A model generated the notes under the pieces. That model was not told the origin of the DNA, did not search any database, and worked only from the letters and a program-made list of their open reading frames with translations. The position numbers and the translations under genes are program-made. DNA of 64,000 nucleotides, taken from assembly GCA_914767715.1 (NCBI GenBank), contig OU612074.1, forward strand, positions 23,856,062 to 23,920,061. The letters are read 5' to 3'. The first letter of the stretch is position 1, and each line of letters opens with the position of its first letter. This stretch comes from Membranipora membranacea (Eukaryota > Bryozoa > Gymnolaemata > Cheilostomatida > Membraniporidae). Of the stretch, positions 1-53,426 are shown in pieces.

Positions 1-2110
1 TCTGTAAAATACCAGTACTTAAGAGATCTTCTAAAACTGCAACATCTTTTGAGTCTTAATCATTCCACCGACTTTATTGCTCCAGGTATGAGAGATATCC
101 AGTCAGACTCTGGTAAAAGTAGCCTCATGTTTGGGCAATACCCATGAGCAGAGATATTCATTGCTAAGTAGTGAAAAAAAATCTCAGCCAGAATGCCTTT
201 CATTTTGAATAAAGGGCGGTCATTCATGACATTGACAACAGGTCATACAATGTAATATTATTGGACCCTTAGGCGATATGAAATAATGAGGGGAAAAATC
301 CAAGCAAATCTTGCATAGTGCATAGACTAATACCTCCTCAAATATTCTCACCCATTGTTTGTAGGAAAAGGATGATACATTGGTGCGGAAGCTCAGATTC
401 TGAGGCAGACATTTAAGATGCTGCAGGAAACTATGTGATCATGTGGAGATAGCTTAGAACTTAATCCACCCTAGCCTGTCTTAACAAGCAAAGTATAACC
501 TTAGAATATCATAAATTAGCCAAAACAGGGGAGATAACTACTGATTTGTTAGAAATGTTAGTTTTTTCTATATATTATTAGGGAAGCTTTCACAGATTGT
601 ATTTTAGTTTCACTTGTTCAAACTTTCTCGATATTACAAAATTATGTCGGACTAGATATGGGAGGCAACTCATAAGTATGCAACTTCATGTACGATTACT
701 TCAGACCTTTTGACTTGCGGAGTGTATGGATTTTAATGTTAGCAGTTGGCGGTCAATCCATTACAGTGATAAAGTGGTGTGAGTTTAGCGAACTTTTCAG
801 CAGGCAGGCTGTCTAATGAAAGCTCGATGTACTTGAGTAGGAATGAGATCATTGTTATTAAAACAGTTTATAATTGAGTGATACATTGAGTTATTAGGAT
901 TTAGTGGGGATGGAGTTATTATCTCATATCATCTGTCATGGTTCCATTAATACCAGCATGTTGTGTTATTTGATAAGATAGGTCATATTGTTATATTTCA
1001 TTTGATATCTAAACCATAGTAGTATAATATTCACTCCTGTATAATATAATAGATGCAGGCAGAGCAGTTGTCTATTGTGGTGAAATAAAACACAAGTTAT
1101 CTGCTCCTGAATATAATCATCAGAAGAAAACGTTAGTTATATAATCAGTACATAATAATAATACAATATCTCACCAGGAGCTTGTTATCGAATATCTACC
1201 TGTGAGGTGATGACCTCTGGTAATCAAACTCCACAAATACATTTCCCAGTGTAAAAATGAAATTTATGAGAGAAAAGTAAAGGTAATATAGACAGTTACT
1301 TCATTCATATACAGTAAGCGTTCATACTTGGAGGATATACAGCTTGTGTATAGTTTATATATGTCAATTACAGTGGCTGAGAGGATATAATTGATGCGTG
1401 TATATCTTGTCTTATTTTCTCTGATATTAATATAGAAATGTAAAGATATCAGTGTTTCTTAGCAATGTGTTTGAGTGAGCAACCTTTGCTCAGCATTCAC
1501 ATCAGATCAGCGTTTAGCTGATATGAAATTTATGGTTCAGTAGATAGTTTGGTGTTTAGTTGACCGCGAGCTCAGTATCTTATCCTGTATATAGTGGTTG
1601 TACAGATCACACATTACTTCTTACTATCCATCTATGGTAAGTTTTAGGCTCTCCTACCTCGTGTCCATCACTGTCCTCAGTTCTCTGTACACAATCTAGA
1701 GATCAACAAGAAAAATAATGTTGATGTCGGTTGGCATTTACACTAATTAGATTTGTCTTATTGTCAGTTATGAGGTAAAACCAATGCAAGGAGTCAATCT
1801 GTTACCATATATGGTCATACAACTGCATTCATTCCAAAACTCTATAAATACTATGAGCTGCTTGGTAAACGCAACAATAACCAACAAACACTCTACCCCA
1901 CAAACACTGTGCCACTCAAACACTCTGTCCCACTTAGAGTGGAGATGACTTTAAAGCTCCACTTACCACTATTATCTCATCACTGACACTGTAAATCCTT
2001 TTAGATAAGTACTATATTACCAGCATTGACTCTTTCACTCAGATAGAAAAATCGCAGCAGATACACATAATGCACCAAACAATAGAACAAACATAGATAG
2101 ATAGTCTAGA
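1..2110. other. No gene recognised; A+T-rich flank downstream of gene A
   Basis: No open frame of note, no transposon protein and no tandem array is seen. The stretch would hold the 3' untranslated region of gene A if the TAA at 2111 is used, or one more small exon if the donor there is used. Confidence 0.5.
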
Positions 2111-3169
2111 TTACTTACCAGGTTGTTGCTCGATCCTCGTTGTGGTCGGATCAGGTAACACAGGATATCTCAGACTATCATCATGGTCTACTATCATCAA
2201 AGGCTCCAGATAGAACCTATTCCTGAGAAATGTACATCTTGTCTGAGGCATGGAGGCTACATAATTCTTTTCAGGATGCCGTCGGTCAGCTCTTGTTCTC
2301 AGCAGGTATTCTGTTCTCTGTACTCCAATCTTAGCCACCACCTGTCTGATCTATAGATATAACATAATCAATCAAAACTTGATGGATTCAAGGCTCATAT
2401 GATTGAGAAATATCCTGAGAGACATTTAAAAGCAAATTTCCAAAAAATGTTGCGTGGTCTACTTGAGAGTAGCCGCGTAGGAAACATGGACTGTTGTTAA
2501 AACTTACAGTCACTGCTAGTTCCTCCATATGATGTAGATGAGCATATTTGTAAAACACTGAGACCAGAGTTCGAATAAAACGTGAGCCCGTTCTCTCACT
2601 TCTCGGAGAGGAAAATGCTGAAAATAAGACAAATAAAACGATATGCATGAATATAACAGAATCAATATAATAAATAGCATATGAGAGTAACCATACATCA
2701 TTGTTATCATTCTGAACAAGCGATCAGGATTAGTTAAAGTGGCACTGATAGAAACAATCCCTGGAAGAAAGAATGAAAGAAGGCATACAGTTTCATAATC
2801 CTTATTGGCAAACTTTTAGGATAAGTTTAGGAGCGCCGACTGAGATTGAATTAATGACATGTGAAAAGATCCCTAGGTCATGGAGACCAATTACATGGAC
2901 ACTCGAAACAAAGCAGTTCTTCACCGTTTAGAGGGTATGACAAAAACCAAGATTTTCCAAATTTCACTGCATTGTATATGATAGTTGGCTTAGTGACTTA
3001 CACTCAAAACTTGACTGCATAATGAGAAAGTCAGCGGTAGAGATATCTTTATCAGCTAGATCTACTACGTCATCATCAATAGGAGGCTGCTGCTGGTGAC
3101 CTGCTCCAGGCTGATTCTGATTGGCCGGAGCCTGTGGAGGCGTGGCTGTTAGCAGCATTTCTCTTTTAC
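2111..3169 (-). CDS. Gene A exons 15 to 17: caspase p10-like subunit and C-terminus
   Basis: Exons 3169-3002, 2617-2508 and 2341-2111. After QACAGS comes a Pro/Gln-rich interdomain linker (ATPPQAPANQNQPGAG). The acidic DDDVVDLADKD stretch after it resembles a caspase processing site. ADFLIMQSS follows, then SPRSERTGSRFIRTL, which matches the SWR...GSWFIQ substrate-binding loop of caspases with Trp replaced by Pro. The last exon contains YVASMPQTRCTFLRNRFYLE, which corresponds to the C-terminal strand of the caspase fold (usually ending KK-L-F). About 30 further residues precede the TAA at 2111-2113. A gtaagt overlaps the stop, so a different last exon below 2,110 is possible. Confidence 0.85.
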
Positions 3170-6100
3170 CTGAATTGATATAAATACCGGGTTTATCTCT
3201 TTATGTACGTGCAGACATGCGATCATTTCGATGGAAAGTTTGATATAAATTTTATTAGTTATTCGCTATTTTCTGCCCCTTTTCCGAGCTGATAAGATTA
3301 TGCTCATCAGTGTGTCTGAATGGTCCTTAGTCTGCCTTCTAGATCCACAGCAGCAAGAGAAATAATTGTGCTTTTAAATATAAAACAATTTAAAAGTGCT
3401 AAAAATCATTTAATACCTTCAGATATTACTAACACTACTACTCACTGCCTGCACAAGCTTGGATAATGACAATCTTTAGCTTCCCTCTCATAGCAGGGAA
3501 GTTCTTGGGAGAGAGTAGATCTATGATCTCCATGATCTTAACTTGTTTCCCATCTGATCCACCTACAGATCCTTCATCTCCATGGGTCATAATGACTAAG
3601 ATAAACGATCTGAGATCTTTGTGTACAGATTCTCCTGTCTGATTATCAACCAGCTGTGTCTCCTTATGGATCTCTGTAACCATGCGCTATATAAAGGACA
3701 TAACGGAAATTGATCAACAGTTGGCTAATTAAACTGAGCCAACTAAGAATGATTTATTTCAAAAATATTTTTGTGGTCATGGAAGGATCTTACTTGTGCA
3801 GAATAACTCCTGTGACCTCCTAGAGTGACATAGCCAAGCTTATCCAGCATCTTCTTCATATTTATATAATCATACTGTGAGCCTCGTCTGGTGTCGTTGT
3901 ATGAGTTAGATATAATCAGGGCTCTTCCTCTTGTGAGAGAGATCGGTGATTCTCCCTGGAAAATGTTTATAATATATTATGGTCTTTGAATGTCTCTGCT
4001 ACCCAATTACAATGTTTAGGGACGGCATGTTTAGTGTTCTGCATGTTGGGTTCAAACATGAGTACAAATACTGGGTAAATTTGATATGCTATGTTATGGT
4101 TAATATGATATGCCTTCACATCAAGATGAATTGACCTGCCTTGTATATAGCAGCAGGATCCAAATAGATTGGCTCCAAGTCAATCAAAGCGTCATCAGAG
4201 GTCACTATACTGATAATCTCATCTAGTTCGGCTGGTTGTAAGGTGGCTGATGAAAGTGATTCTGCCGAGCCAGATGATACAGAGCCAGATCCTGGTTAAC
4301 ATAGTAGAACATAATACCGTGTATTACTATAATTTTATTGATGCTTGTTGATGAGGTTTCGTTTCCTGTAACCTAATCATGCACTGTGGTCTGTGCATTG
4401 GCTTTAAATTTTAAATGTCAACATCAAAAACATTCATTTGGTTTGCCTGAAAAATCTATGCAAAAAAGCTGATATAAGAGGTATGATACTATATTGACTA
4501 CCTTGAGAGTTGTTTTCTGGTACCATATATCCGATGTACTTGTCCAAAACCTGAACTCCTTTCTCTGTGATTCTTCCACCTAGCAAAGTAATGCAGATCA
4601 GTGTAAAATATATGTTGAACATGAACGAAGAGCACAACGACATTTTTAATAGATTTTCCGCTGATTGTTGAAAAGAAGACCTATCTCATCAATATCCTAC
4701 ACTTTTTAAAATTTAAAATTAAAAATGATACCAAAACTACCCGATAAGACAATCAGATATACTCACATGGGTATATCAGTGGATGTGGAACTGAAGGTCG
4801 ACCTTTGACACGTTTATCTTGTTTACATTCACGGACCTCCTCACCATCATACTCCATGTTAGATCCAGTCATCCATTTAGGGTTCACTTTAGTGATTGGT
4901 CTGTTCTGGTTTGTGAGCAGGCAGTGAGAGCAGTAGAATACTGTGTCATAGTGAGCCCCGGGCCACACCTCATTCAATGCCACTTTCAGCTGCTGTGCAC
5001 TTTCCAACTGATCTTTCCAAGACTTAGCGAGGTTCTTAGAGCTGGTCAATGCTAGAATGGTGATTTTCCTCTCAGGGTGGCTGTGGAACATGTACTTCAT
5101 TGTACCATTTCCCTCCTTTACACAAGCACCATTCTTCCCCGCTTCTATGGTGGCAAATTCTGTGATGTGGTGATCCAGATAGATTGCAGTGAGAAGGTGG
5201 TACACGTATCCCGGCAGTGGGAGACCATTCAGGGAAATGTCAAACTTCAGTGGAATGAAGTCCCCCGTTTCGACAACAGTGATCTCCCTCTGACTGAAGT
5301 ATGGGATAATGTAATGAAACTCGGATGTGTCCTGAATTGGGCCACAAATCAAATGAAAGACTTTCAGTGCTGAGATGGCAAGCTTAGGGGGCAACTCGGA
5401 TTCATCTTTGATCACTTTAGTTAGCAGTATTGAGTTCATCATTCCAGTTTCTTGAAATTTGACAATCATTTCTTCATATTCCCTCTTGTTTATCTTCTTC
5501 TCATTATTCTTCTCATCAGGTATGAACGGAGTGAAATTACTCAGTCGTTCTTCCCAGGCCTTTTGGCTTGAGTGATCAAAGATCAACTCCACTAGTTTTG
5601 TGAGGACTTCGATGCGGTGAAATACAATGTTGGCAAGATCTTCCCTCTTTTGATACCACAGCACTTTGCCTATTTCATGAAGGTATTGAAGTATCTGGTG
5701 GTCTTTCTCATGCGGAAATAATGCATCTAATTCCTCCAGTGTCAGATAGGGTTTATCTGTCTCCTGTGCACATGTCTGCATGATTTCATACCAGTTTTCT
5801 GGAATTTCTGTGAGAAGTGACAGCCCTATTGAGAGGAGGTTTGACTTCAGATCAACTATTGCCTTTCCCTTTGTTCCTTTACTGATAACTATAGGTTTGT
5901 GTGCCTTTAGAAGAGATTTTGATGTTGCGAGGAAGCTTTTCATAAGAAAGAAAGGGCTGTTAGATGGGGCCATGACCTCCTCCTCACCTATAACTCTCCT
6001 GCGTAAAATCTCTGTTGTATCAACCAACTGATTCTTCCTCATTGTAAATACTTTATCATCTTTGATACAGTCACGATGGGTCAGAACTAAAAGAGGAGGG

Positions 6101-9100
6101 CCAGCCTGGGGGCAGGAGAGGTAAAGATGGCAGAGCCAATCAAAACAAAGCTTCTCACAAGCCGCTTCAGCACTAATCTCAGTCACTAGTTTGTCAAACT
6201 CAGCTATGTCCACGACCAACAGAGGCACAAACTGGGATCTGAAGGACAGCTGGTAGGTGAAATGGTAGATCACCTGACCACCAAAGTCATGGAATACAAG
6301 CTTCGACCTCTCATTTATGTCAGCCTCGCACACCTTGAATACTTTGGTTGCCTCATCTAGCTTGTTCTTTGTGGTCCGCGTTGTCAAGGATCTTTTGTCA
6401 TTCTGTATAGATTTAACGAGGCTTGACTTCCCAGCCATAGTTTCACCAATAACAGTTACTGGGATGAACTGGAACTTGCTGTCACCGCATCTTTCAAGAT
6501 CAGCCAGATATTTGAATAAAACTCTGAGACCAAGTTGACAGATAGCATAAGGAGGACAAATCAGCGATCTACATCCATCCATTTCAAGAGTTTCCAGTTT
6601 GCTGAGTTTATGCAGAGTTGTAGGAAGTCTAGTTAAAGATCTATTCTGAATGACATTTAACTTCTCTAAACTCGATAACCCGGATATACTAAGAGAAAGG
6701 AGAACAAAGGAAAAGATCTCAGAATATTTGCTTGGGTTATGTGATATACGGAATCTGATAATATTTTCTGAATAATAATATAATTCTGGCAATAATATGG
6801 ACAATGCATACAAAACCAACAGAGTTTTACACAGTATTAATTGTAGATTTTACAAGTCATTTATATGCATTATGTGGCATAGGTTTTACTAAAGTAAGTT
6901 ATCATGCAAATAATTTTTCCCACGAATCAAATGGATGATTATAATTATCAAATTAATTGATAAAACTTTAATTCAATTGTAACCAGGTGTGATAAATGGA
7001 TAGCACCAAAGGCTGTGACGCCCGGGGATCAAATCCTGATTGGGGTTGTTCATTTTGAAGTGGGAAATAGAAGCATGGGAACTGATTATGCCTCATTGTT
7101 CAAGTGAATGGGATGTTTAAAATCGTTAATATAACTAAAAATAAATGTTTTTTTGTTGGTAGAGTACAAAATATGAAAAGCGAGACTGGATATGATGTTG
7201 AACGAGGCACCAGACCAGGTGATAAGGGAGTGTGCTCCAACACTTGACATGGGAAAAAAATGGTCTGTCTCAGAGGTTTTCAGAGATGCCAAATCACAAG
7301 TGGAGATAAGCGAGATTGTGGGTGCTGCTACAGTTGCACTTCGTGGCAACGGCTGAAAAGCAAACCGGTGGTTCTCGAAAGAATGCCAATAGGTAAGACT
7401 GGAGATGATAATTGATGAGGTGCGCAAGATGGAGGAGGATACTGTCGAATTGCCCGCAGAGCCTGGGAAGATACACGTATAGGCATAATCAAGTCCTGAA
7501 AGCGTTGTGTAATGATGAACAGCGGAGAATGGCAGGTGAGTTGCGACCTCACAGAGCAGCTCAGCATGCCACAGCATATAATAATCACAAACCAAAGACC
7601 AGACTTAATTGTCTGGTCTGACAAAGAAAATGCACTAATACTGATCGAATTTACGGTGCCATTGGAAGGAAATCTCTCATACACACATAAGAGAAAATTG
7701 GGAAGCTACAAAGATCTGGTGACACAATGCCACCGAAGGTTGGAAGTTGGCTGCCTTGGATTCATGGCTTGGCCCTCGCATAAGAGGCAGGCTCTGAGGG
7801 CTCGATGAGATTAATTGAGATGCTCATCAACACACAAGGGTCGCTTCATGCTGCTGGGGCCGGCCATGAGGAGGTTGTACTAGAAAAGGCCTCGAAACAG
7901 CACTTGACTCACGATGGTTTCTAGCTGAAGACCTGGTGTTGTGCAGTGGTACGCGGTTGTATCCCCCACTAAAAATAAATGTTGGGATTCTTAACGAGGC
8001 AGACAGTCCTACCTCAATATGAATGATGCTCATCAAAACTCATTATCCCTATATTATGTTATATTATTCTGTTATGTTATTCTTTAAACTTATCTATACA
8101 CAAACATTGTTTTGTGACAAATCACATACCAGCCGGAGTGAGAGTAGAATAACTAAAAATAGAAACAAACCTATTATGTGGCAATTGAACGCTATCAACA
8201 CTGTCCAATTTTTGCAATTACAACAAAAAGACAAGTCACATAGGGTTGTACTGTGATCAAAGTAGAGGCAGCATATAAAATAGCGGGGAATGATTTTGGA
8301 GGCGACAACAGTGGTCAGGGCTTGATGCATCTCGGGGCCTTGTACCAATTCAAGAGTGATGCAGTCTATCCAAATCCATAGTTCTGTCAAATTACTTTCC
8401 TATTCTTGCAACATAAAATTTTATAAAGAGATATATTGCTGCATTGGATGTCAGGAGTGGTCTGTTAGTTAAGGGTGCAGACTTGTGATCTATGAGGTCC
8501 AGGTTCAAATCCGGGTGCCGGCAGTCATTTCTGATTTAGTAATGGCCAGCCAATCATCCTAGCGAAACGGGACTATAAATCTCAAAGGTCCACTGTGTGT
8601 TTGCACACCCACATGCAGTAAAAAGATCCCCTTTGCCTCTTCGATAATAAGAGTAGCCGGAATTCCGGGGGGCAGGGGTATAGGGTGCGGCTTGAGTACC
8701 ACGGGTCCATATACCTGTACTCTGAAGGGGTAACCAACTCCTCAATGACGACTTAGACTTATTGCTCCATTGATATGTTTGAACAAATTCTTCAATAAAT
8801 TTCTAAGCTTCAAATTTTCGTAAAGACTGGAAGCTGACAATGACAAAACAAAACTAGAGGGGATCCAGCGCTCTGCTACTCGGATTATGCTAACATTCTC
8901 TGACAACTGTGAACAGAGACTTGACAATCTAGCACTGCCGCCCATAAAATTTTCCGGCTCACCTCTTGCGGTAAACAATCCACTGAAATAGCCGACAACG
9001 ATCATCACTCCCTGAACCGTCGCATTAGAATAAATGCAAGCAGAACATCCGTCCGTAGAGTAAAAATAGATAAATACAAGCCATCCAAGTGTAGAACAAC

Positions 9101-12100
9101 TAGAAGACAAAAACAATTTTTTTTGGAATTTTACGCACGATTTTTCAACCGATGCTGCTCAGACTCTTTTTTATTTTTTAATTTTACATTTATGTGCCGT
9201 ACATTTGATGCTATTAACCTATTATAAGATGGATGGATAATAATAAATCAAAAAACCAACTTCACACTTCAAACTCCAAGACCAAAATTCTGAGCTCAGA
9301 CTGAACCTGTGCTAGAGAGTGCTTACTTGTGAGTAATTTTTTATCCTGCACCAAACTATGATATAGTGCATGGTAATCGCCGAGCAAATATTATTGAATT
9401 CGATCCCCTTCAGCCAACTGCTGCCGATTTTTGTTAGGGTGTCATTGAGGCAACATGGATACTTTGTCAAGTTGGTTGAAAGGGGTAATATTGAACAATA
9501 CACATGATAACAATGAGAGTGTTGATTGTTAGCATTTGCTACAACTGTTAACTTATATTGTTGGTACAGCACTATTTGTCCTAACAGTCAATGGAATGAA
9601 TTCTATAGCAATATGGGAAGATAACTCTTACAAACAAACCCTTGTTCGTCGCGAACAAAATCTGTACTTTAACTTTTTCCAACCTTATCTGAATTTATTT
9701 TTGACCTGAGCGAGAGACATTTTAATAAGATAGCGAGTGATCCAGAACATCCACTTTTTAGTAGAGTAATACGAAACAATAACAGAACATCCTCTTGCTT
9801 AAATACTACTTTCCGACCCAAGACCTGCAAGACTCAAAAACATGCCAAATCTTTTTTCCAGCCTTAATGTCTTATTTTAACAACATACAACCTTAACCTT
9901 TCTTAGTCCATATATTAATTAATGTACACATTCAATTTTATCATTCTCATGATACCGAATGTACAAATAAACTGAAACTGAAACTGTAGTGTGTGGTATG
10001 TCACAACCGTCATACTTAATATGAGTTATTACACTAATAATCACACAGATAAGATGATGATCAAAATTCAGACCTAGATGGGTCTCGAACCCAGGTCCGA
10101 ATGCAATGCAGGCAATGCCGCTAACGGTATGTGGACCCAGATTCGAGTCCCAGTCAGGTCTAAATTTTGATCATCATCTTATCTGTGTGATTATTAGTGT
10201 AATAACTCTTAAAAAGTATGACAGTTGTGACGTACCACAGGGGAAACATCCGCTTATTCCCTATGCCGATTGAAGGTGATCACCCTGGAAGTTTGAGAGG
10301 CCATAACTTCCTCAATATCTGGATTCTTAAACTTGAATTCGCTCATATGATAGAATAAAATATGGAGAATAAGATGTGATACAAAATAGCAGCCTCAAAT
10401 TAAGTCTTTAATGGCAAGGCTGCAATGTCTGCGCCAGTTTTGCTCTCTGTTTGCAGGCAGATCAGAGCACACCTGGGGGACAACCAAATCCTACTGCAGT
10501 TGGCCTCCAGGCGTGCTCCGACCTGCCTGCAAACAGAGAGCAAACTGGCGGAGACATTGCGGCCTTGCCATTAAGGCAAAATAATTTTCGCCGCCCATGC
10601 TTCGGGATGTGGCGCGTGATATGACATCCGATTTTAATCAACCTTGAACCAGTTTTTCGTTGACATCGCCGGAACTTTGTCTGATATCAACCTCAAATCT
10701 GCTCTAACCGATCTACCATATGACAGTACACATTGCGCAAGTAAAACGCTGGCTGCGTAATATAGACACATCGAAGTCAACATGTGCATCAGACTTTCCC
10801 TCATAAGTCTCAAAGTATTGTTGTGAGGATTGGTGCATACCAATGTGGGATCTAAATAAACAAATGGACAGAAATGGTAGATGAAAAGAACTGTCACGCT
10901 GATCCTACCGCTTTCCTGGCCATGTCAAAGGCTTTTGACAGAATGGAAAAAAATAAAAGTAATAGAGAAGCATTCATCAAGAAAAGTTGACAAGGATCTA
11001 ATCTCTATTGTGCATGCTTCTTGGATGGCAGAGAGCGAAAAGTAAGGTTAGGCAACTCCATCAGCCTAACCTTGAAAACGAAAAATGGAACACCTCAGGG
11101 AACTCTCCTAGGACCAATTTTCTGGTTACTGTATATCGACTCACGGTCAACCAAGCACGGGACCATTGACAAGTATGGGGATGACCTCACCAAAACACCC
11201 AAGGTCAGCAGTGCTGCTAGGGACTATATATGATATTACCAACTGGTGTGATAACCACAATATGCCAGCCATTGCGATCGCACATCATAGATCAGACTAA
11301 AATTCTGATCTGACGTAGAGAAAAGCGCCATACTGGTGGAATCTAGGGTGCCTGGTGACACAATGCCTATACAAAGGATATAATTGAAAATAATTCCCAG
11401 TGGAAGTAGGCTTCCATGAAGATGCGGCTAGATCAGCTATCAATTTCGAGAATTGCGTTTTCAGACAAAGAACACAAACAGGCGATAAAAAGCGAGGTAT
11501 AAGTACTAAACTGAGAGGAGTAAGTGATCAGCTCCTTGGGTACTCAGGGTATTAGGTAGAGTTGGGATTGTGGCTCCAATACCCGCAAAAAAGATCACTC
11601 CCAAGGTGTCCTATAAAGATTTTCAGGCAAAAACAGAACGAAAATAGTAATTTTGCAGCCATTTGTTGATGGTCATAAGGGGACGTTGTAGCGAACTTTA
11701 GATAGAACAGTTAAAACATCATATCATATAAACAAGGAATGGGACTTAAACTGCGTTTTTTAACAAAGTAGATTATGTTGTATGACAGGGAGGAATTTTG
11801 AGTGTTGATGTAAATCAACATGATAATCTGAGGGGGGGAGGGGGTGGACTTTCTCAACTATCATTGAGATACCAATTGTGAAAAAAAAAACATTTTCACC
11901 TTAATACTACCCGATAAACAACTTAATTAATCAATCAGATGGGTGCAGTTCTTATGAGTAAAATAAAGGATTAATTTAGTTACAATAACAGTGTTTTGAA
12001 AACAACTATACTGTACTTGCCTCTCAGGTATCTCTGTTAGATCACAATGTCTCAGATCTAGCTTTTTGAGACACTTCAGATCCCCTATCCGGCTGGGTAA

Positions 12101-15100
12101 GGTATGAAGGTTCTTATTTCCATTCAAGTCCAGCACCTCTAGGTTTGTAAGTGATCCAATACTGTAATGAAAGTTATTAGATCTGTCAGTACGTACCCAG
12201 TTTTAAAGGAGCAGCAAAGCAGAAGATAATACAACAGTGCACCAATCTAATAGCAAAGTACATATGCAGGTACTGATCTTACTTTTGCAGGATAGGTGGT
12301 ATTCAGTGACAATAAAACACATAATAAATAAATAAAGAAATAACAAATATGATGGAAAAAAGCTAATGTATAATAACGTCAACTTGCAGTTCTTGAGACT
12401 GAAGCTATTATAAAGATCTATGTGATCTCAAACTGAGTTAAGAGTTTGGTAAAATATGATTAGATCATAACTTTGCATTGTCATATACTCCGCATGGGCT
12501 ATTCTTACTTTGGGGAATCACAGAACCATTGTTCTGGCCAAAAAAACAAGAGTGATTTTTGGTGTTGATCAAAATTCAATCTACATAACATTTCTATCTC
12601 ATTTAAATTAATATCTAGTGACCTTGAGGTCAGGTTATATTTGGTTTAGTGGTTGTCTGCTCTGCAACTGTTATCAGGTCCAATCACAGCTGTATTGAGG
12701 ATGACCCATAGGAAAAGAGCAAAGGTTTGGTGCTTTCTTATCCGCTTGATGACTCTATATCACCTATCATATTAAATTAATTACATACTGTGTAACACCC
12801 GACTGAGGCTGTTATGGTTCAGGTCATGTGATACAGGAGGCAGCAGCGGAAAATTTTGAGAGTGAACATCTTGAGACGACTATGAATCAGTTTAAACTTG
12901 ATATTCAGCTCTGTAGTGAATGATATTCTGTTCCAAAGAGCTGATTTCCTTACTGGCTATTCATTTAACATTTATAAATGGGTTGCCAGGGTTGTCTGCT
13001 ACTTTAACAAGCACTTTTTTATACCCGTCCTTTTAACAGAAAAATAATTAAAAAAAACTCAGCTAACATACCAGTAACCAATTCCATGTTGCCAATCCAA
13101 CAAAAGAAATATTCTGTCGATCAATACCACTCATGCGTTTACCATCAGCCAAAAATCTTTATTTAGTAACTTCATTTATGCCAAACCAGTACAGTCTGTC
13201 CGCCCAACTATTATGAAACTTGGCACACCTCAGCGAGATAGCTTCAATCTATGTATGTATGTATGTATATGATGCTCAAATAATGGTGTGGGAGAGAAGT
13301 TATTCATCAGTTGAAATGAAGCAACATGTTGTAGGTTTAAGTCCCTGGCCAATTTATGAGATACAAAAAAGATTGGCTTCCATAGACTTTACCTTTAGGT
13401 CTATTTTTGATACACAGCTTTCTAAGTATCCCTCGGAATATCCTCTCGGAAAAGATTGTATACACAAAAGGAGCCTAAGGGTCTTCAAATTATTTTGGTT
13501 GATTGATTATAGCTTGTAATTATACAACAAAATTTACCAAAAGCCATGAGGATCATTACACATTGGTAAGCTTAATTTTGTAGAGTGATTTGTCAATAAC
13601 CTTCAAATTGTGTAGTGACAAGATCACTTGTGGAGAAATGTCTAGTCTCCACAATTCAGGTTCTGTCCATTGGTCTGTTATATATTTGGTTATGCTATAA
13701 AATCCCACAGCGTTCATTGATCGGGACGGAAAACTACTGATTTAAACTCGTGAGAAAGAGGCTAGAAAGACATGGAGATATCTAAAACTTGGGTGACAAA
13801 TATTTCGTTGTATGGCAGGGAGGAATTTTGAGTGTTGATGTAAATCAACATGATAATCTGAGGGGGGGAGGGGGTGGACTTTCTCGACTATCATTGAGAT
13901 ACCAATTGTGAAAAAAAAACATTTTCACCTTAATACTACCCGATAAACAACTTAATTAATCAATCAGATGGGTGCAGTTCTTATGAGTAAAGTAAAGGAT
14001 TAATTTAGTTACAATAACAGTGTTTTGAAAACAACTATACTGTACTTACCTCTCAGGTATCTCTGTTAGATCACAATCTCTCAGAATTAGCTTTTTGAGA
14101 CACTTCAGATCTCCTATCCGGCTGGGTAAGGTATGAAGGTTCTTATTTCCAAATAAGTACAGCTCCTCTAGGGTGGTAAGTGATCCAATACTGTAATGAA
14201 AGTTATTAGATCTGTCAGTATGTACCCAGTTTTAAAGGAGCAGCAAAGCAGAAGATAATACAACAGTGCACCAATCTAATAGCAAAGTACATATGCAGGT
14301 ATTGATCTTACTTTTGCAGGATAGGTGGTATTCAGTGACAATAAAACACATAATAAATAAATAAAGAAATAACAAATATGATGGAAAAAAGCTAATGTAT
14401 AATAACGTCAACTTGCAGTTCTTGAGACTGCAGCTATTATAAAGATCTATGTGATCTCAAACTGAGTTAAGAGTTGGGTAAAATATGATTAGATCATAAC
14501 TTTGCATTGTCATATACTTCGCATGGGCTATTCTTTCTTTGGGGAATCACAGAACCATTGTTCTGGCCAAAAAAACAGGAGTGATTTTGGTGTTGATCAA
14601 AATTCAATCTACATAACATTTCTATCTCATTTAAATTAATATCTAGTGACCTATAGGTCAGGTTATATATGGTTTAGTGGTTGTCTGCTCTGCATCTGTT
14701 ATCAGGTCCAATCACAGCTGTATTGAGGATGACCCATAGGAAAAGAGCCAAGGTTTGGTGCTTTCTTATCCGCTTGATGACTCTATATCACCTATCATAT
14801 TGAATTAATTAGATACTGTGTAACACCCGACTGAGGCTGTTATTGTTCAGGTCATGTGATACAGGAGGCAGCAGCGGAAAATTTTGAGAGTGAACATCTT
14901 GATACGACTATGAATCAGTTTAAATTTGATATTCAGCTCTGTAGTGAATGATATTCTGTTCCAAAGACCTGATTTCCTTACTAGCTATTCATTTAACATT
15001 TATAAATGGGTTGCCAGGGTTGTCTGCTACTTTAACAAGCACTATTTTATACCCGTCCTTTTAACAGAATAATAATTAAAAAAAAACTCAGCTAACATAC

Positions 15101-18100
15101 CAGTAACCAATTCCATGTTGCCAATCCAACAAAAGAAATTTTCTGTCGATCAATACCACTCATGCGTTTACCATCAGCCAAAAATCTTTATTTAGTAACT
15201 TCATTTATGCCAAACCAGTACAGTCTGTCCGCCAAGCTATTTTGAAAATTGGCACACCTCCGCGAGATAGCTTCAATCTATGTATGTATGTATGTATATG
15301 ATGCTCAAATAATGGTGTGGGAGAGATGTTATTCATCAGTTGAAATGAAATGAGGGTAAAGAACTGACTTAGAACGCCAACCACCCTCTACCTTTTTAAA
15401 ATTAGCCCACAGGATGAACACTTTCCTGGATTTTAAATCCTGCCTATTCACCGAACTAAAACTTCCGAAAACTTACTTTCCTAATCAAATTACAAAGTGG
15501 TTGCAAAGTTTCCAATGTTAACATATATTAGGGTTTTCAAGAATAAATGATAGCTGATAATTTTGCTTGTTTTACTATTCTTGGCCCGGTCTCTAAATTT
15601 AAATCCTTGTACATTTTCAACCTGCAGGGTATTTTGGACATGGGTTTAGGTAGCCTGTCTCGACTAGGGTTGTTGTGGCAGATGCTTGCCCATTCCCACT
15701 GCAAAGCTTGTCAAGACAGGCTCAGATATAGGGTGCGATATGCAAAATAATAAGTACTAGCAACTGGACTTAAATGGCTCTCTGTTGATTCTGTTTTATA
15801 CATTAGGATTCGCAGAAGGAGATAAAATGCTTTTCTGACCTTAGAAGATTTTAATCAGACGGAAGTGTACTCTATCAAGCAACATGTTGTAGATTTAAGT
15901 CCCTGGCCAATTTACGAGATACAAAAATGATTTGCTTCCATAGACTTTACTTTTAGGTCTATTTTTGATACACAGCTTTCTAAGTATCCCTCGGAATATC
16001 ATCTCGGAAAAGATTGTATACACAAAAGGAGCCTAAGTTTTTTTAACTTATTTTGGTCGATTGATTATAGCTTGTAATTATACAACAAAATTTACCAAAA
16101 GCCATGAGGATCATTACACATTGGTAAGCTAATTTTGTAGAGTGATTTGTCAATAACCTTCAAATTGCGTAGTGACAAGATCACTTGTGGAGAAATGTCT
16201 AGTCTCCACAATTTAGGTTCTGTCCATTGGTCTGTTATATATTTGGTCATGCTATAAAATCCCACAGCGTTCATTGATCGGGACAGAAAACTACTGATTT
16301 AAACTGGTGAGAAAGAGGCTAGAAAGACATGGAGATATCTAAAACTTGGGTGACAAATATTCTGAGTCTCTACACTATTTTAAGTCCACTGACCAACTTA
16401 AGAATTAAAACTAAAGGCCTACATTATTCCTGACTTCTCTTCAAACTTACCCCTACTCACTCTCCCCTATGTAACGAGGCAATTTTGTGTCAACAAAATT
16501 CCTTCCCATGAATTTTGATGGCGGCATATTATAAACATTTCTGAATCTGAATTATTGTCATTACTTTCTAATGAATCAAGATTTCCCTTTTTACATTTCA
16601 AGAATTTAACAGTAGGGTCTAATGATCCGAAAACTTGTTAAACGAAAACAAAAGATAGCCATTCAATTATATGCACCTAGAAGTTGCAAGGCATTTAGTT
16701 ATCTTTGGAGGAGCCATGTCCAAATCCCTTATCTCTGCTCTAAAAAAAGCTGTGTACTTTGGATTTCTTATATCTGTATGATGTGATGATGCAGTTTAAT
16801 AAAATTTTTTGTAGCCAACCAGTAATTGAATCAAACACCTGAGTACTAGCAGCTGGACTTAAATGGCTCTCTGTTGATTCTGTTTTATGATGCCCTGTAT
16901 ATTGATTGCAGATTGTTTGAGTTACCGGAGCTTATTAGTTTAAATTGTTGATTTTGTGTGTTTGATAATTGTGTGGATTTACATGTAGCAGACATTATTA
17001 TGTAATGATTTTGAATTAACCTAAATTGTGCAGGCACTTAGTGTGCCCTCTCTGATTAATTGAGAGCAGAGCAGTGTTCGACTTGAGAGAGAGTGGACCT
17101 GCACCAGCGTGAATAAAGATCTTTTATCCTTTAAGTACGAGCTAGTGAATATGTAGACAGCATTATATAAATGTTTTTAAGACTTTCACCATGAACCTCC
17201 CTGCCTAAGACGGTGCGCCCCGCTCGACAGCACAGAGGTTGAGGAACATTAAAAGAAACAACCTTTAGTCGTTACATCCCCATATCTATAATGAAAGAGT
17301 GAAGACATCGGATCATATCAGGTGTGATTATTATTATTATTTGGACGCCTAACTCTAAACTCTTATCTGATTTTATTTTTGACCTGAGCAAGACACATTT
17401 TAATAAGATAGCGAGTGATCGAGAACATCCACTTTTTAGTAGAGTAATACGAAACAATAACGGAACATCCTCTTGCTTAAATACTACTTTCCTACCCAAG
17501 ACCTGCAAGACTCAAAAACATGCCAAATCTTTTTCCCAACCTTAATGTCTTATTTTAACAACATACAACCTTAACCTTTCTTAGTCCATATATTAATTAA
17601 TGTACACATTCAATTTATCTTTCTCATGATACCGAATGTACAAATAAACTGAAACTGAAACTGTAGTGTGTGGTATGTCACAACAGTCATACTTAATATG
17701 AGTTATTACACTAATAATCACACAGATAAGATGATGATCAAAATTCAGACCTAGATGGGTCTCGAACCCAGGTCCAAATGCAATGCAGGCAATGCCGCTG
17801 ACGCTGAGCCTAGTGGCGCAATGGTAGCGTCGTTGCCTGCAGGTATGTGGACCCAGACTCAGTTCATTAAAGTCAATTTGGGCAAATCTTAGGCTAAGAA
17901 GTTGTCTTCTCTTATTGTTGAAATTTGGTGGCTCATTTGCAGTATAGAGTTATCACCCTATCTATCTATCTGTGTAAAACATTTTAGTTTCAAGCATGTG
18001 GATAGACTGCTTCACAGAGTAAAGGGATTCAGAGTAAATTTTTAACAATAGTCAAGGAAAGAGTTTTTTACTCCTTGGTCAATGTACCTGCAAGCTTTGC

Positions 18101-21100
18101 GTCAAGGGGAAAGTTATGGGAAGCTTGATGCCAAAAACTCCTTTCATCTATTTGTCACAATTATGGGTTCTGGAGAATGAACTGAATTCAAAGTTTTGAT
18201 TACGGTAAAAAATAGAATATGCAGGCTCTCCCCTAAAAATTTCTCTTTGTACAGCCTTACTCCACAATTAGACATGAAGTTTTATGCTTAAATTACACCT
18301 AACTATCTTAGCTAAATTGATACGGTGGGTATAGCTAGGAAGGTAGTATTGTGGCAGTTTTTACAATAGGATTAACTATTACAATCCTTGAATGATGCTG
18401 CCACAATGTACCCTTGGTCTGTGCAATCATTGAACCTTAAATTTATCGAAAGGGCCTCATAACAAATGTATCTGCGGTCCATCGTTTACTGGGCTTTGGT
18501 TGGCACCCAGGTGTGCTCCGACCTGCCTGCAAACAGAGAGCAACCTGGCGCAGATATTGTGGCCTGGCCACTAAGGCAACGAATTTCGCCGCCTATGCTC
18601 CGGGATGTGGCTTGTGACAAGGCATCTGATTTAAATCAACCATCAATTTTAATCAGTCTTGAGACACAAAGGTTATCCTCAGGTTTTGATATTCTAATAT
18701 TACATTGCCTTTAAATCATTTGGAAAAGATAAACAAGGCACAACAGTAACAAATTCTTTCCCTGTAATGAAACACAGAGACTGCAATACAACTGGTTGTT
18801 TACAAATAAGATTTTCTTGAGGGATTAGAAAATTTACTCTGAGAAAACTATGTCTGTAATAATTACAGACATTGTTTTCTCAGAGTAAATTTTCTAATTA
18901 TTGCTCTAACTGATATCTTCATCCAGCTTAGGTCTCGATTGTACTTGGATCGTTTCAATGCACCGCGTGGAGAATTGCTTCAGATTTTGTTTGGAGGCCA
19001 TCTCAGATTTGTTGTTTATTGAGGCAGCCCACCTGTTTGGCTAACCGAATCCTCAAAAGTAACAACATTATACCTTGTTGCAGTATAGATGCAGTCCCAG
19101 TGCACCCTCTACTTGATTGTGCAATAACTCCCGGAAGAAGGTTTACCCGGCTAACAAGAGTGAAGTGATCGCAACCTTGTATGACTTTTTAGAAGCATGA
19201 GTAAAGAGAGTGTGGATAATTGAATGTCGACAAGGTGTCATGGTCGATTGCAAAAATGTAAATATATGAGTAGCCAGCCACTAGAGCCTATTGATTCAAC
19301 ATAATATGATATGATATTTTAGATGCAATAAAATTGGTATAAAAAAACGGGGCACTCAATATGGGCTAAATTTTTTGTATCAGAACTGGGGTTTTGGGCT
19401 TGGAATGCTGGTTGGAAAATTTGGACTGAGCAGGAATTACAAATTATCTAGCACTGGGCTTTGGTTGGAACCCAGGTGTACTCCGACCTGCCTGCAAACA
19501 GGGAGCAACCTGGCGCAGATATTGCAGCCTGGCCACTAAGGCAACAAATTTTGCCGCCTATGCTCCAGGATGTTGCTTGCGACAAGGCATCTGATTTAAT
19601 TCAACCTTCAATTTTAATCTGATGTAATAATGCTATAATACATAAATATCATAAGAAGCAACAAGTCTTGAGACACAAAGGTAATCCTCAGGTTTTGATA
19701 TTCTAAAATTACATTGCCTTTAAATCCTTTGGAAAAGATAAACAAGGCACAACAGTAACAAATTCTTTCCCTGTAATGAAACACAGAGACTGCAATACAC
19801 TGGTTGTTTACAAATAAGATTTTCTTGAGAGATTAGAAAATTTACTCTGAGAAAACAATGTCTGTAATTGCTCTAACTGATATCTTCATCCAGCAGAGGT
19901 CTCAATTGTACTTTGATCGTTTCAATGCACTGCGTGAAGATTTGCTTCCAATTTTGTTTGGAGGCCATCTCAGATTTGTTGTTTATTGAGGCAGCCCACC
20001 TGTTTGGCTAACCGAATCCTCAAAAGTAACAACATTATAACTTGTTGCAGTATAGATGCAGTCACACGGCATGATTTTTTTAAAAATTGTACAAATTCAA
20101 CCGTAACATGAATGCTGTCAATGGTTATTTCAGGACTGCAATTCCTTAATGGTGATAAATACACCAAGGTCGAACATACAGAAACCAGCTCACTGAAAAT
20201 GCAGCAGAATAATTCACATAGAATATCATGTGTGTTATTAAGGGTGAGCCCTCCAGACACACAGTTATCATAATCCTATACGCATCCAGCATAGTTACAT
20301 TAGTGTTTTTCAATAATAAAAATATTGGGATGACATTCGAGTAAAATTTAAGCTCAAACATTTGGGTGTAGTTTGGAAACGCTATCATTGAACAGTATAC
20401 ACTGAAAAAGCCAAATCCAAACCATGTTTCGGAATATTAACAATATTAATTATTTTGAGGTCTATAGTCATTCTGATAGAATTTGATAGGTGACTGATGG
20501 GTCACCACGATCTATACTGAAAACTTATATCAACCAACAGAAATATTCTTTTGTTTAAGTTCAGTATAGCATCTCCATTGTCATTTGTAAATTGCTCCAC
20601 TCCTTTGATAAAAGGCAATTAGAATTTGTTTGAAACTGTACACAATGGCATAGAAACTACAAATATATAGGCTCTTTGCACTGCCTTGCAACATTGCCAC
20701 TGCACTGATGGATGAAATAAACACCGTAATGAAAAAGTAAATCGCAATATTAAATATGTTAAAAAAATATTTCAAACATGCCCTCAAAAGCTCATTTAGA
20801 TAATGTGATGAACTGGTGCTCCAAAAAAAACCAGATCTCTGTGAGTTACCATGTCGAAGTGTAGTTCTGCCCAAACAGAAAAACACGAACTTGGAGATTT
20901 TTTGTCAGATTTGGAGTTTTTTGCAGAAAAAGATAAATGAATAGTTAGCTGATTGTCTAACGATCCAGGGGACCAAATGTGGTTATTCTGAATTAAAAAC
21001 TGTAGGAAGGAGATAGCTTTTGGAAAAGTAAGGAGGAGATAACTACAACTGAGCATTTTTGACTTTAAATAACTGAGGATTCGAGTCCCAGTCAGGTCTA

Positions 21101-24100
21101 AATTTTGATCATCATCTTATCTGTGTGATTATTAGTGTAATAACTCTTAAAAAGTATGACAGTTGTGACGTACCACAGGGGAAACATCCGCTTATTCCCT
21201 ATGCCGATTGAAGGTGATCACCCTGGAAGTTTGAGAGGCCATAACTTCCTCAATATCTGGATTCTTAAACTTGAATTCACTCATATGATAGAATAAAATA
21301 TGGAGAATAAGATGTGATACAAAATAGCAGCCTCAAATTAAGTCTTTAATGGCAAGGCTGCAATGTCTGCGCCAGTTTTGCTCTCTGTTTGCAGGCAGAT
21401 CAGAGCACACCTGGGGGACAACCAAATCCTACTGCAGTTGGCCTCCAGGCGTGCTCCGACCTGCCTGCAAACAGAGAGCAAACTGTCAGAGACATTGCGG
21501 GCAAAATAATTTTCGCCGCCCATGCTTCGGGATGTGGCGCGTGATATGACATCCGATTTTAATCAACCTTGAACCAGTTTTTCGTTGACATCGCCGGAAC
21601 TTTGTCTGATATCAACCTCCAATCTGCTCTAACCGATCTACCATATGACAGTACACATTGGGCAAGTAAAACACTGGCTGCGTAATATAGACACATCGAA
21701 GTCAACATGTGCATCAGACTTTCCCTCATAAGTCTCAAAGTTTTGTTGTGAGGATTGGTGCATACCAATGTGGGATCTAAATAAACAAATGGACAGAAAT
21801 GGTAGATGAAAAGAACTGTCACGCTGATCCTACCGCTTTCCTGGACATGTCAAAGGCTTTTGACAGAATGGAAAAAAAAAAAAGTAATAGAGAAGCATTC
21901 ATCAAGAAAAGTTGACAAGAATCTAATCTCCATTGTGCATGCTTCTTGGATGGCAGAGAGCGAAAAGTAAGGTTAGGCAACTCCATCAGCCTAACCTTGA
22001 AAACGAAAAATGGAACACCTCAGGGCACTCTCCTAGGACCAATTTTCTGGTTACTGTATATCGACTCATGGTCAACCAAGCATGGGACCATTGACAAATA
22101 TGGGGATGACCTCACCAAAACACCCAAGGTCAGCAGTGCTGCTAGGGACTATAGATGATATTACCAACTGGTGTGATAACCACAATATGCCAGCCATCGC
22201 GATCGCACATCATAGATCAGACTAAATTTCTCGTCTGACATAGAGAAATGTGCCATACTGGTGGAATCTAGGGTGCCTGGTGACACAATGCCTATACAAA
22301 GGATATAATTGAAAAAAATTCCCAGTGGAAGTAGGCTTAGATGAAGATGCGGTAGATCAGCTATCAATTTCGAGAATTGTGTTTTCAGACAAAGAAAACA
22401 AAAAAGCAATAAAAAGAGTAGTATAAGTACTAAACTGAGAGGAGTAAGTGATCAGCTCCTTGAGTACTCAGGGTATTAGGTTGAGTTGGGATTGTGGCTC
22501 CAATACCCGCAAAAAGGATCACTCCAAAGGTGTCCTATGAAGATTTTCAGGAAAAAACAGAACGAAAATAGTAATTTTGCAGCCATTTGTTGGTGGTCAT
22601 AAGGGGACGTCGTAGCGAACTTTAGATAGAACAGTTAAAAACATCATATCATTTAAAGAAGAAATGGGACTTAAACTGCGTTTTTTAACAAAGTAGATTT
22701 TGTTGTATGACAGGGAGGAATTTTGAGTGTTGATGTAAATCAACATGATAATCTGATGGGGGGGGGGTAGGACTTAAGCTGTAGCTCCACGTAACATTGT
22801 AATCACAGGCCGATGGCATGTCTAGACATGCTCGGCCGAGCTCACACTGCTACACAGGCCTATGAGTTAGTATACGATGGTCTAGTGAGTCATAGCGGCT
22901 CATAAATCAGATGCCTAGATTGACCAATGAACTCCCTCAGTTCAATCGATTGACCAATGATATTTAATGGGCGTGTTAACAAATGACCGGATATAGATGT
23001 CATATTAAATCCGGGTCTTTGTCACTTTGAATCTTCACCAAATAAAATTTCAGTCTTCTATAAAATTGATTTTCCTATGCTATACTATGGATGTCATGTC
23101 AGGACAGCTTCCATTTCCAAGTGATACAGCTATTACCTTCCATATTTTCACTTCAGCACCACTCCTATCTTTGTAGTTATGGTCATTTTATCATAAATAG
23201 GAGGATGTGATTTTACTACAGATATTATCAACCCCTCCATTTTTGATAGCCTGTCACGATTTGATAGATGACGTGTTTAACCACGTAATTATTGAAGCAA
23301 GCAATCAACAACCAATCAGCATAGATGATCGTCCACATCACTCGGGCAAAAGACCAACAAGTTCGATGTCCACTTAACACGAGTAATCACTCGTGCAGAT
23401 CAACCGATTAACCTCCCGTGACCCCAAATCGATGTAAAAATCGTGTCATGTAGCCATAGCTTTACTCGACTATCATTGACATACCAATTGTGAAAGAAAG
23501 AAAAACAATTTCACCTTAATACTACCCGATAAACAACTTAATTAATCAATCAGATGGGTGCAGTTCTTATGAGTAAAATAAAGGATTAATTTAGTTACAA
23601 TAACAGTGTTTTGAAAACAACTATACTGTACTTACCTCTCAGGTATCTCTGTTAGATCACAATTTTGCAGATCTAGCGTTTTGAGACACTTCAGATCTCC
23701 TATCCGGCTGGGTAAGGTATGAAGGTTCTTATTTCCAAATAAGTACAGCTCCTCTAGGGTGGTAAGTGATCCAATACTGTAATGAAAGTTATTAGATCTG
23801 TCAGTATGTACCCAGTTTTAAAGGAGCAGCAAAGCAGAAGATAATACAACAGTGCACCAATCTAATAGCAAAGTAAATATGCAGGTACTGATCTTACTTT
23901 TGCAGCATGGTGGTGGTATTCAGTGACAATAAAACACATAATAAATAAAAAAAGAAATAACAAATATGATGGAAAAAAGCTAATGTATAATAACGTCAAC
24001 TTGCAGTTTTTGAGACTGCAGCTATTATAAAGATCTATGTGATCTCAAACTGAGTTAAGAGTTGGGTAAAATATGATTAGATCATAACTTTGCATTGTCA

Positions 24101-35739: not shown

Positions 35740-37326
35740 AGGACCCTTAACCTGGGACATCCTTTCTCTGTATTCTTGCCGATCCTAGTAGAGCAGAGAA
35801 CTGCACTCCGTCTACTTCCTTCTTCTCTATCTCCAGCATCGCCATTTGTTCATGTAGGTTAGCCACAGCTCCTAGTGCTCCTACAATGATTGGTATAACT
35901 GTCCCTGATGTGTTTAATATTTTTCTTATTTCTCTCGCCAGATCCTGATATTTTTCCACCTCCTCCCTCTCCTTTTCTGTGACTCATGCATCTCCTGGGA
36001 CGGCTATAACAATGATCCAAGTGTGGTTGATTTCTTTGTCTTGCACAACAATGTCTGGCCTGCGGGCTTGTATGATGTGGTCTTTTTGAATTGTTAAGTC
36101 CCACAGGGTCTTTGCTTTCTCATTTTCTGTCACTCTCTCTGACTGTTGTTCGTACCAATTTCTCCTGTGGTCTAGTTGACATCTCTTGCACAAATTCCAA
36201 TGAATCAGTTGTGCCACCTTGTCATTGCGTTTCTTATACTCTGTCTGTGCTATTTTTGAACACTCACTGAGTATATGAAACACGGTCCCTTCTCGTTCAT
36301 TACACATTCTACACAGTGCTGTACCTCCTCGTTTCTCTATATGTACTTTCTTCCATCGAGTTGGTAAAGCCTGATCCTGTGCAGCCATGAGAAGTCCTTC
36401 TTTTTCTTTCTTCATGTAGCCATTCTTTATCCACTTGTACGTTTTCTTGGTGTCTGTTCGATCTTGTGTACTGTCCATATAATGCTTTGTTCTTCCATTC
36501 CTGTTGTTTCTCTTCCATCTTGCGGTCTTTATACTCTCGTTTGGTTTCTTTCTTCTCAAAACTCTTGAGGTATCTGTTGAGTCCTTTGTCTTCATGTGTT
36601 ACGTAATCTGAAAGTCCGTGTTCCTCCGTCCTGATAGTTTCTTCCACTGCTCTCAATCATCTTCCTCTTTCATTTCTTGCCAAATAATGCCTTGCCACAC
36701 TAGCTCTCGGGTGTAGCGCTCTGTTTATAGTCATAAGTTTTTTGGTTTTTCTGTCCATAACCCCAAACTCCTCCTGTGTCCAGTCAAGTATTCCTCCAGA
36801 GTATCTGAGGACAGCAACTGCTCGTGTGTTTACTGCTTTGATGAATTTTCCTCCATTCATCTTTGATTCCAATAGTAGTCTTAATCTTCTGTAATACTCT
36901 TTCCTTACTTTCTCCTTCATCTTTTTCATTTTTATGTCGTCAGCTTCAAGCACCCCCAAGTAATTGTAGTCCTGTTCTCCTAAGTCTTTCATCAGCTCTC
37001 CATCAGGTAACAATATCCCCTCATCCTCTTCACGTTTCCCTGTCTTCATCACTACTGAAGCACACTTCTGTATTCCGAACTTCATCTTTATATCCTGGGT
37101 GAAAATTCTGACTGTTTGTACCAATGACTCCAGTTCTTTTTTTGTTTTTGCCGTATAGTTTCAGGTCATCCATGTAGAGCAAGTGGTTTATTTTACCTGA
37201 CTGAGGTTTTGAAAGTGTATACCCTTGTTTCGCTTCTCGTAGTATCACACTCAGAGGTATGAGGCCCACAATGAAAAGCAGCGGCGATAATGAGTCACCT
37301 TGGAAGATCCCCCTCTTGATGTTCAT
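35740..37326 (-). pseudogene. 5'-truncated non-LTR retrotransposon with CCHC knuckle and restriction-like endonuclease
   Basis: Minus-strand frames in sequence: reverse-transcriptase palm (RGIFQGDSLSPLLF, then LLYMDDLKLYG, about 37,326-37,030), thumb (KMKFGIQKCASVVMKTGK, YLGVLEADDIKMKKMKEKV, NTRAVAVLRYSGGI, about 37,124-36,657), basic connector, a CCHC-type finger (CRMCNEREGTVFHILSEC), and a restriction-like endonuclease (RRPDIVV...WIIVIAVPGD). The C-terminal helix includes EVEKYQDLAREIRKI. This order is that of R2/R4-group elements. It is inactive: several frameshifts, a TGA after VPGDA, loss of everything 5' of the FQGD box, and the second catalytic Asp of PD-Xn-D replaced by Val. An inverted repeat (TTGATGTTCATTATTGAACATCAA region) marks the broken 5' end. 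Confidence 0.8.
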
Positions 37327-53256: not shown

Positions 53257-53426
53257 TTGGCGACGGGGATAAAACTCAAAAAGATTGAGGTGGAAAGAAG
53301 GAGACTGTGCCAAAGAGGGTGATAGATCCATAAACAGACGGTACTCAGCCAAACACAGACACAGACTAAGCGAAGAACAAAAACCTATGACAGTGACGGA
53401 GACAGAAATGACTTGAACCGCATTTT

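Follow-up and report, generated by a model that had tools for sequence, protein, structure and literature searches.

A candidate family of single-chain ROCO-caspase proteins in the bryozoan Membranipora membranacea

Background

NLR, apoptosome and inflammasome receptors have sensor repeats and a nucleoside triphosphate switch upstream of a caspase. A 64,000-nucleotide stretch of the Membranipora membranacea genome (C10:23856062-23920061 in a genome of 339,339,785 bases and 18 contigs; hereafter the window) raises the question of whether sensor, switch and protease can be parts of one protein in an animal. The original prediction, made from the letters of the window, placed a ROCO GTPase fused to a complete caspase at positions 2111-6688. 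We find that the Roc-COR and caspase exons very probably belong to one gene, judging by comparison with its paralogues. This claim is strongly supported because the Roc-COR donor is conserved, the linker exons and their phases are conserved, and Roc-COR and caspase exons are paired genome-wide. The predicted protein carries leucine-rich repeats (LRRs), Roc, COR and a C-terminal caspase in one chain. It is fairly probable that the window gene is one member of a large family of such proteins acting by the sensor-protease mechanism proposed below.

Results

Gene model

The window gene was modelled as 18 frame-consistent exons on the minus strand (32353..1607 of the window) that form a single open reading frame (ORF) of 1,615 aa. 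The order of domains is N-terminal repeats, LRRs, Roc, COR, a short linker, a full caspase domain and a tail. The exon chain of the original prediction indeed stays open and in frame across the 18 exons; its extent lies inside the gene, which reaches further on both sides. Fifteen of the 17 introns are GT-AG and two are GC-AG, with the GC donors at 12021 (exon 9, whose sister exons have GT) and at 4140 (exon 12). The exons are as follows, with the basis of each in brackets.

32263..32353, minus: exon 1, start codon and basic KKRR stretch (gene model)
30223..30852, minus: exon 2, 102-bp coding repeat, five times (gene model, repeat analysis)
29492..29539, minus: exon 3 (gene model)
28548..28770, minus: exon 4, conserved module preceding the LRRs, with matches in L046, L047 and at 50441-50662 (plus) (gene model, comparison)
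27808..27945, minus: exon 5, LRR cassette, 138 nt, phase 2-2 (gene model, Pfam)
27044..27184, minus: exon 6, LRR cassette, 141 nt, phase 2-2 (gene model, Pfam)
23636..23776, minus: exon 7, LRR cassette, phase 2-2, recently duplicated block with exons 8 and 9 (gene model, comparison)
14050..14190, minus: exon 8, LRR cassette, phase 2-2 (gene model, comparison)
12021..12161, minus: exon 9, LRR cassette, phase 2-2, GC donor (gene model, comparison)
4767..6688, minus: exon 10, 1,922 nt, last LRRs, Roc and COR, conserved phase-1 donor at its end (gene model, Pfam, profiles)
4502..4579, minus: exon 11, linker 1 (GRITEKGVQVLDKYI), kept in paralogues, donor weak in the window gene (gene model, comparison)
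4140..4291, minus: exon 12, linker 2 (LQPAELDEIISIVTSDDALIDLEP), conserved, GC donor in the window gene, fixes the caspase frame (gene model, comparison)
3794..3955, minus: exon 13, caspase p20 part 1, substrate-pocket Arg (TRRG) (gene model, Pfam, CED-3 alignment)
3446..3686, minus: exon 14, caspase p20 part 2, His (MTHGDEG) and Cys (QACAG) (gene model, Pfam, CED-3 alignment)
3002..3169, minus: exon 15, Asp-rich p20/p10 loop (gene model, paralogue comparison)
2508..2617, minus: exon 16, caspase p10, second Arg (SPRSERTGS) (gene model, CED-3 alignment)
2119..2350, minus: exon 17, end of p10 and start of the tail (gene model, Pfam)
1607..1695, minus: exon 18, C-terminal tail and stop (gene model)

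A candidate exon at 2760..2692 was dropped, since exons 15 and 16 join in phase when it is left out.

The junction of Roc-COR and caspase

Exon 10 spliced straight to exon 13 gives a broken frame, and exon 12 with its GC donor is therefore needed. The paralogues provide a comparison of this junction. The Roc-COR exon ends in a phase-1 GT donor at the homologous codon in 19/19 distinct paralogous loci (20 rows were compared, two of which, L032 and L035, coincide), and no stop codon beyond this donor is shared across the 20 rows. In all eight paralogues whose linkers were read, the split codon is completed by linker 1, linker 2 keeps a motif like QLDDIVxIVNS..ALIDLEP, and the caspase exon follows in phase 0. 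These eight (L035, both L036 copies, L037-L040 and L044, where the start of linker 2 was not located) were read by eye and are not independent, as L035, L038 and L039 are nearly identical there. The donor ahead of the caspase exon is GT in seven of the eight and, as in the window gene, GC in the near copy in L036.

Codon scoring gave modest support to the linker exons (P 0.022 and 0.0056), with another frame scoring higher for exon 11. Splice scores were low for the linker 1 donor and for the three junction-intron acceptors; with 14 introns from this one gene as their training set they are over-fitted, and they were counted as proof neither way.

Roc and COR

Pfam searches with the spliced protein found LRRs (E down to 6.5e-40), Roc above its cut-off (7.2e-7) and Peptidase_C14 over its full length (4.6e-29, profile positions 1-233 of 233), which bears out the Roc and caspase calls for which the original prediction had proposed such profile searches. 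The motifs named there also lie where they were placed: exon 6688..4767 holds GETMAGKSS, DFGGQ and THRD, and exon 3686..3446 holds MTHGDEG and QACAG. No kinase domain was found in the spliced protein (Pfam, E up to 1), so that it is not of the LRRK or DAPK class.

The COR call is only partly upheld by Pfam. Several results weigh against it: COR-A of the window gene (2.6e-6, 27.8 bits) is under the curated cut-off of 35.3; at E 0.001 Roc was found in 13/13 family members, COR-A in 4/13 and COR-B in 1/13; and a 13-row profile compared with solved structures (PDB) matched in the Roc part only, with COR unmatched. Profile-profile comparison speaks for COR. The same 13-row profile (the window gene, L035 and L037-L047) matched a profile of prokaryotic Roc-COR proteins with 99.7% probability and E 1.1e-25 over 438 columns, reaching into COR-B. 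The prokaryotic profile was built from 20 of the 26 loci that a CtRoco fragment had retrieved; L006 and L022-L026 were excluded as incomplete or without Roc. Against the same profile, exon 10 alone matched in Roc and COR-A (98.6%, 6.8e-16). Its matches to prokaryotic Roco structures were weak (8.2e-5 to 5.8e-4). A search with the Roc-COR exon returned no relative in GTDB or in viral contigs. A Roc-COR structure predicted without an alignment was discarded (mean pLDDT, the predicted local distance difference test, of 31).

The P-loop and THxD are present in 12/12 complete Roc-COR exons (L035 and L037-L047), which have no stops. A pattern search for DFGGQ/H was positive in six of the 12 and missed the other six, a point against the preferred reading, but D-x-G-G is invariant in the 13-row alignment, which includes the missed exons. 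Roc with COR directly after it places the predicted protein among the ROCO proteins, COR being weak by Pfam alone.

The 13 rows also share an invariant F-x-C-x-H-C ... C where COR ends, at residues 584-621 in the 640-aa translation of exon 10, perhaps a metal site.

Caspase domain

The closest matches of the caspase part in the structure database are caspase-9, CED-3 and caspase-1 (1.2e-14 and weaker). Aligned with CED-3, it agrees at both Arg positions (TRRG, SPRS), at His (MTHG) and at Cys (QAC); aligned with caspase-9, in the His region, the Cys region and p10. In caspases the two Arg belong to the Asp pocket. The predicted domain thus has the complete p20/p10, the catalytic His and Cys and the two pocket Arg that define a caspase (Peptidase C14A). 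His and Cys motifs occur in each paralogue p20 exon matched, both Arg are kept wherever their exons matched, and the acidic residues of the exon 15 loop are kept in those paralogues where this exon matched. The caspase is likely to be active.

The death-fold prodomain of initiator caspases was not found: Pfam (E up to 1) reported no CARD, DED or death domain in the spliced protein. The linker piece alone, queried with its first residue wrong, matched no Pfam family at E up to 10, death folds included.

The family across the genome

Matches to Wnt exons number 47 in this genome, several of them in a cluster on C1, which speaks for an animal and probably for a cnidarian or bilaterian rather than a sponge. 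A genome search with the caspase exon, in which 140 of 515 candidates were scored, gave 145 exon matches, later merged into 135 groups. In the search with the Roc-COR exon 69 of 288 first-look candidates were scored, and none of the 69 has an internal stop. A Pfam caspase exon lies 0.7-3.0 kb downstream on the same strand in 39/69, and no Roc-COR exon (0/69) has a misplaced one, on the opposite strand or upstream, at a distance of up to 6 kb. Roc-COR and caspase exons are paired more than by chance.

Against a universal pairing, 30 of the 69 Roc-COR exons have no PF00656 match (25 on C3, four on C1 and one on C10). Two of these loci were opened. L053 (C3) has the motifs SIMSHGTAG and QAC with Pfam caspase scores of 17.0 and 27.0 bits (cut-off 21.4), and L052 (C1) has, by eye, caspase exons of the same kind. 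The missing matches are at least partly a matter of sensitivity, because both opened loci hold a divergent caspase.

In all 17 regions fetched around caspase matches (L035-L051) a Roc-COR exon lies upstream on the same strand. Since these regions were selected by their caspase match (ten were picked by eye from the surroundings of the window and from weaker hits, three came from a list's end and four were taken to cover other chromosomes), the unbiased pairing count is 39/69. Among eight short caspase loci, Roc-COR was found in three (L029, L030 and L032), and none within about 1.5 kb in the other five.

The loci with SHGTAG and QAC may be regarded as a second, divergent ROCO-caspase clade (L053, 846-1884, plus strand, on C3; L052, 2092-883, minus strand, on C1). 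In L052 the LRRs and Roc-COR are in one long open frame.

Selection and recombination

The ratio of nonsynonymous to synonymous substitution rates (dN/dS) of Roc-COR between the window gene and L037, L038 and L040 is 0.11-0.13, and 0.14 with L035; for the p20 exon it is 0.10-0.21 with the same three loci and 0.07 with L044. Roc-COR of L045 and L046, which are less diverged from each other, gives 0.21. Two points weigh against these low values: Roc-COR dS is close to saturation (for L044 it is undefined), and the ratio is larger where a pair has few changes (L035 p20 0.37, L045-L046 p20 0.58, L038-L039 Roc-COR 0.63).

L035 is chimaeric: identity to the window gene is about 94-95% in the caspase half, and identity to L038 is 95.8% in the linker and Roc-COR half. 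The break lies in the junction intron, 13 bp ahead of the p20 exon. This recent swap is a sign of exchange of effector halves between family members.

Exons 7, 8 and 9 lie in duplicated blocks that are 96-97% identical. Their pairwise differences are 6, 12 and 11 of 141 positions, compared with 20/1258, 35/1259 and 30/1263 in the flanks, i.e., the exons diverge more than the flanks (Fisher P 0.040, 0.0016 and 0.0016; the three pairs are not independent). Seven of the eight codon positions with amino acid changes fall on 10 concave-face sites of the 47-residue unit (binomial P 1.3e-4), and none of the three silent changes does; these sites were assigned from the LRR consensus. An entropy analysis of the LRRs, on six units only, supports this weakly (P 0.0026; P 0.033 when the comparison is with non-hydrophobic sites). 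Such change of the concave face would be expected of a diversifying ligand surface, as far as three exons can indicate, and gene conversion from diverged cassettes could be an alternative explanation of the pattern.

Other features of the window

The rest of the window contains repeats, a broken paralogue and frames resembling mobile elements, the latter recognized by eye.

31026-32090: tandem repeat array in intron 1
36657-37335, minus: probable non-LTR (long terminal repeat) element, its ORFs carrying the reverse transcriptase motif YMDD
46826-48297: long tandem repeat array with a 30-bp period
50441-51692, plus: broken partial paralogue in divergent orientation to the gene, with the exon 4 module containing an in-frame stop and one LRR cassette
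53412-57347, plus: several frames that together resemble an LTR retrotransposon of the Gypsy type (zinc knuckle, reverse transcriptase, integrase)
59009-60015, plus: transposase-like ORFs

Discussion

Alternative explanations

The junction could in principle separate an LRR-ROCO gene that stops near 4,750 from a neighbouring caspase gene whose start lies in exon 11 or ahead of it. The window gene itself gives some grounds for this: in-frame ATGs and an open stretch directly ahead of exon 11 would permit a second start, the linker 1 donor is weak, and the donor ahead of the caspase exon is GC (AAG/GCAGGT). Yet between 4,766 and 3,966 none of the ATGs has a phase-0 GT donor (score of at least 2) after it, and the paralogues share the phase-1 Roc-COR donor at the same codon with no common stop beyond it, the codon completed by linker 1 and the phase-0 caspase exon, all of which, like the genome-wide pairing, is at odds with two genes. 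We consider two genes very improbable, and a gene end or start between 4,767 and 4,136, the case that would contradict the original prediction, is unlikely. The single gene that it proposed is thus backed by paralogues (donor 19/19, linkers 8/8, pairing 39/69), while the GC and weak donors of the window gene count against it. Still less probable is a decaying or mobile-element-spread family made up mostly of pseudogenes. The plus-strand partial copy at 50441-51692 with its in-frame stop, the near copy in L036, which matches the Roc-COR end only and has a stop in the aligned piece, and the retroelement-like frames nearby would suit such a family. The 69 scored Roc-COR matches free of internal stops and dN/dS of about 0.1-0.2 in both halves between diverged copies do not.

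A single gene is also compatible with a regulatory or non-apoptotic caspase, one that would, for example, process a transcription factor or its own chain instead of serving as a death effector. Two motif changes weigh against a typical executioner: QACAG stands in place of QACRG, and SPR in place of SWR, with the usual Trp missing. The N-terminal KKRR stretch points the same way, and autopeptidase activation by the caspase domain has been proposed for one bacterial system (Kaur 2021, PMC8195603). On the other hand, paralogues retain His, Cys and both Arg even where Roc-COR identity falls to about 31%, and LRR change at concave sites suits sensing of non-self. We regard a non-apoptotic role as unlikely, though it deserves more weight than the two explanations above.

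Proposed mechanism

For the preferred reading, a single-chain sensor protease, we propose the following steps. The LRR fan would bind a ligand, a microbial or danger signal, and the binding would change the nucleotide state of the Roc GTPase and the dimer state of COR. Two caspase domains would then be brought together or released and be activated by proximity. GTP reportedly favours monomers of CtRoco, and hence activation could be by release. The activated caspases would cut the Asp-rich p20/p10 loop (exon 15) and cleave Asp-containing substrates, which would lead to cell death or inflammation. GTP control of activation seems fairly probable, and immune sensing about equally so. Sequence and comparison show the order of domains, the retained GTPase and protease motifs, the junction common to the paralogues, a clustered expansion, one recent swap of halves and the concave-face change among three recent LRR exon copies; transcription as one mRNA, GTP control, proteolysis, the ligand and the outcome are what we infer. 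A GTP-switched sensor protease that replaces an apoptosome, as put forward in the original prediction, would fit the anatomy of the protein. We lean slightly towards a broader picture, in which a clustered family of receptor-proteases with LRR diversification of the ligand face and effector halves swapped via the phase-0 junction intron forms a GTPase-based counterpart of the NLR inflammasome.

If the proposal is true, an animal combines a sensor and a switch with an executioner protease in a single polypeptide, an arrangement described to date for conflict systems of bacteria, and one molecule could detect and start proteolysis without the usual adaptor complex. The gene offers a direct route to ask whether a Roc-COR switch fires a caspase without an apoptosome or inflammasome, with a bearing on how ROCO proteins such as LRRK2 transmit the GTPase signal to an attached effector. 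The expanded, locally recombining family would be a new system for studying diversification of innate receptors.

Comparison with known systems

MFHAS1 belongs to the LRR-only class of ROCO proteins. The animal classes, i.e., LRR-only proteins, LRRK kinases and DAPK1, have nothing, a kinase or a death domain at the C-terminus (PMC6337361). The window gene shares with them the LRR-Roc-COR core and the Roc motifs and differs in its C-terminal caspase; the word caspase is absent from the main text of that review (PMC6337361). No animal ROCO-caspase family was found in open-access literature by titles and openings of abstracts.

CED-3, caspase-9 and caspase-1 are similar in the full p20/p10 and in the catalytic and Arg positions, but the window protein has a ROCO N-terminal part, and the CARD, DED or death prodomain was not found by Pfam. 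The likeness to NLRs, the apoptosome and inflammasomes is one of analogy only: sensor repeats, a nucleotide switch and a caspase. Their switch is a STAND ATPase, whereas here it is a Roc GTPase, with the effector in the same chain and an adaptor death fold not found.

Amphioxus has LRR-caspase and TNFR-caspase hybrids, in which, as here, recognition repeats are fused directly to a caspase in an animal (PMC2575513); unlike them, the window gene has Roc, a term with no occurrence in the text of that paper. In brown algal ROCO genes, which are proposed immune receptors, the LRRs are likewise on phase-2 exons, which are shuffled (PMC11378527). The algal exons are 72 bp with one LRR, and the LRR-ROC-COR proteins described there have no caspase, in contrast to the 141-nt two-LRR exons and the caspase of the window gene (PMC11378527).

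In the 26 prokaryotic loci found with the CtRoco fragment (of which L025 and L026 have no Roc match and L022-L024 are short pieces), Pfam at E 0.001 found a caspase in none, TIR in four and EAD in two. Three of the loci, all in one Aminicenantes metagenome-assembled genome, are LRR-Roc-COR proteins with a C-terminal Pfam MCU (calcium uniporter) match, possibly a membrane effector (L008, 2.9e-10; L011, 2.5e-4, under the cut-off; L012, 6.4e-12).

The closest known counterparts are bacterial conflict proteins with LRRs, an AP-GTPase (Roc) and COR, among whose at least 24 C-terminal effector domains is a caspase (Kaur et al. 2021, PMC8195603). Several copies per genome are possible, and they are predicted to sense invaders (PMC8195603). 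The novelty suggested by the original prediction therefore narrows: the caspase class is missing from the main text of the ROCO review (PMC6337361), while bacterial LRR-ROCO-caspase (PMC8195603) and amphioxus LRR-caspase (PMC2575513) proteins are published. The kind is already known, because bacterial LRR-Roc-COR proteins with caspase effectors have been described. The window gene has the same order of LRRs, Roc GTPase, COR and C-terminal effector as these bacterial proteins (PMC8195603), and it differs from them in being an intron-rich animal gene whose caspase is nearest to animal caspases among solved structures.

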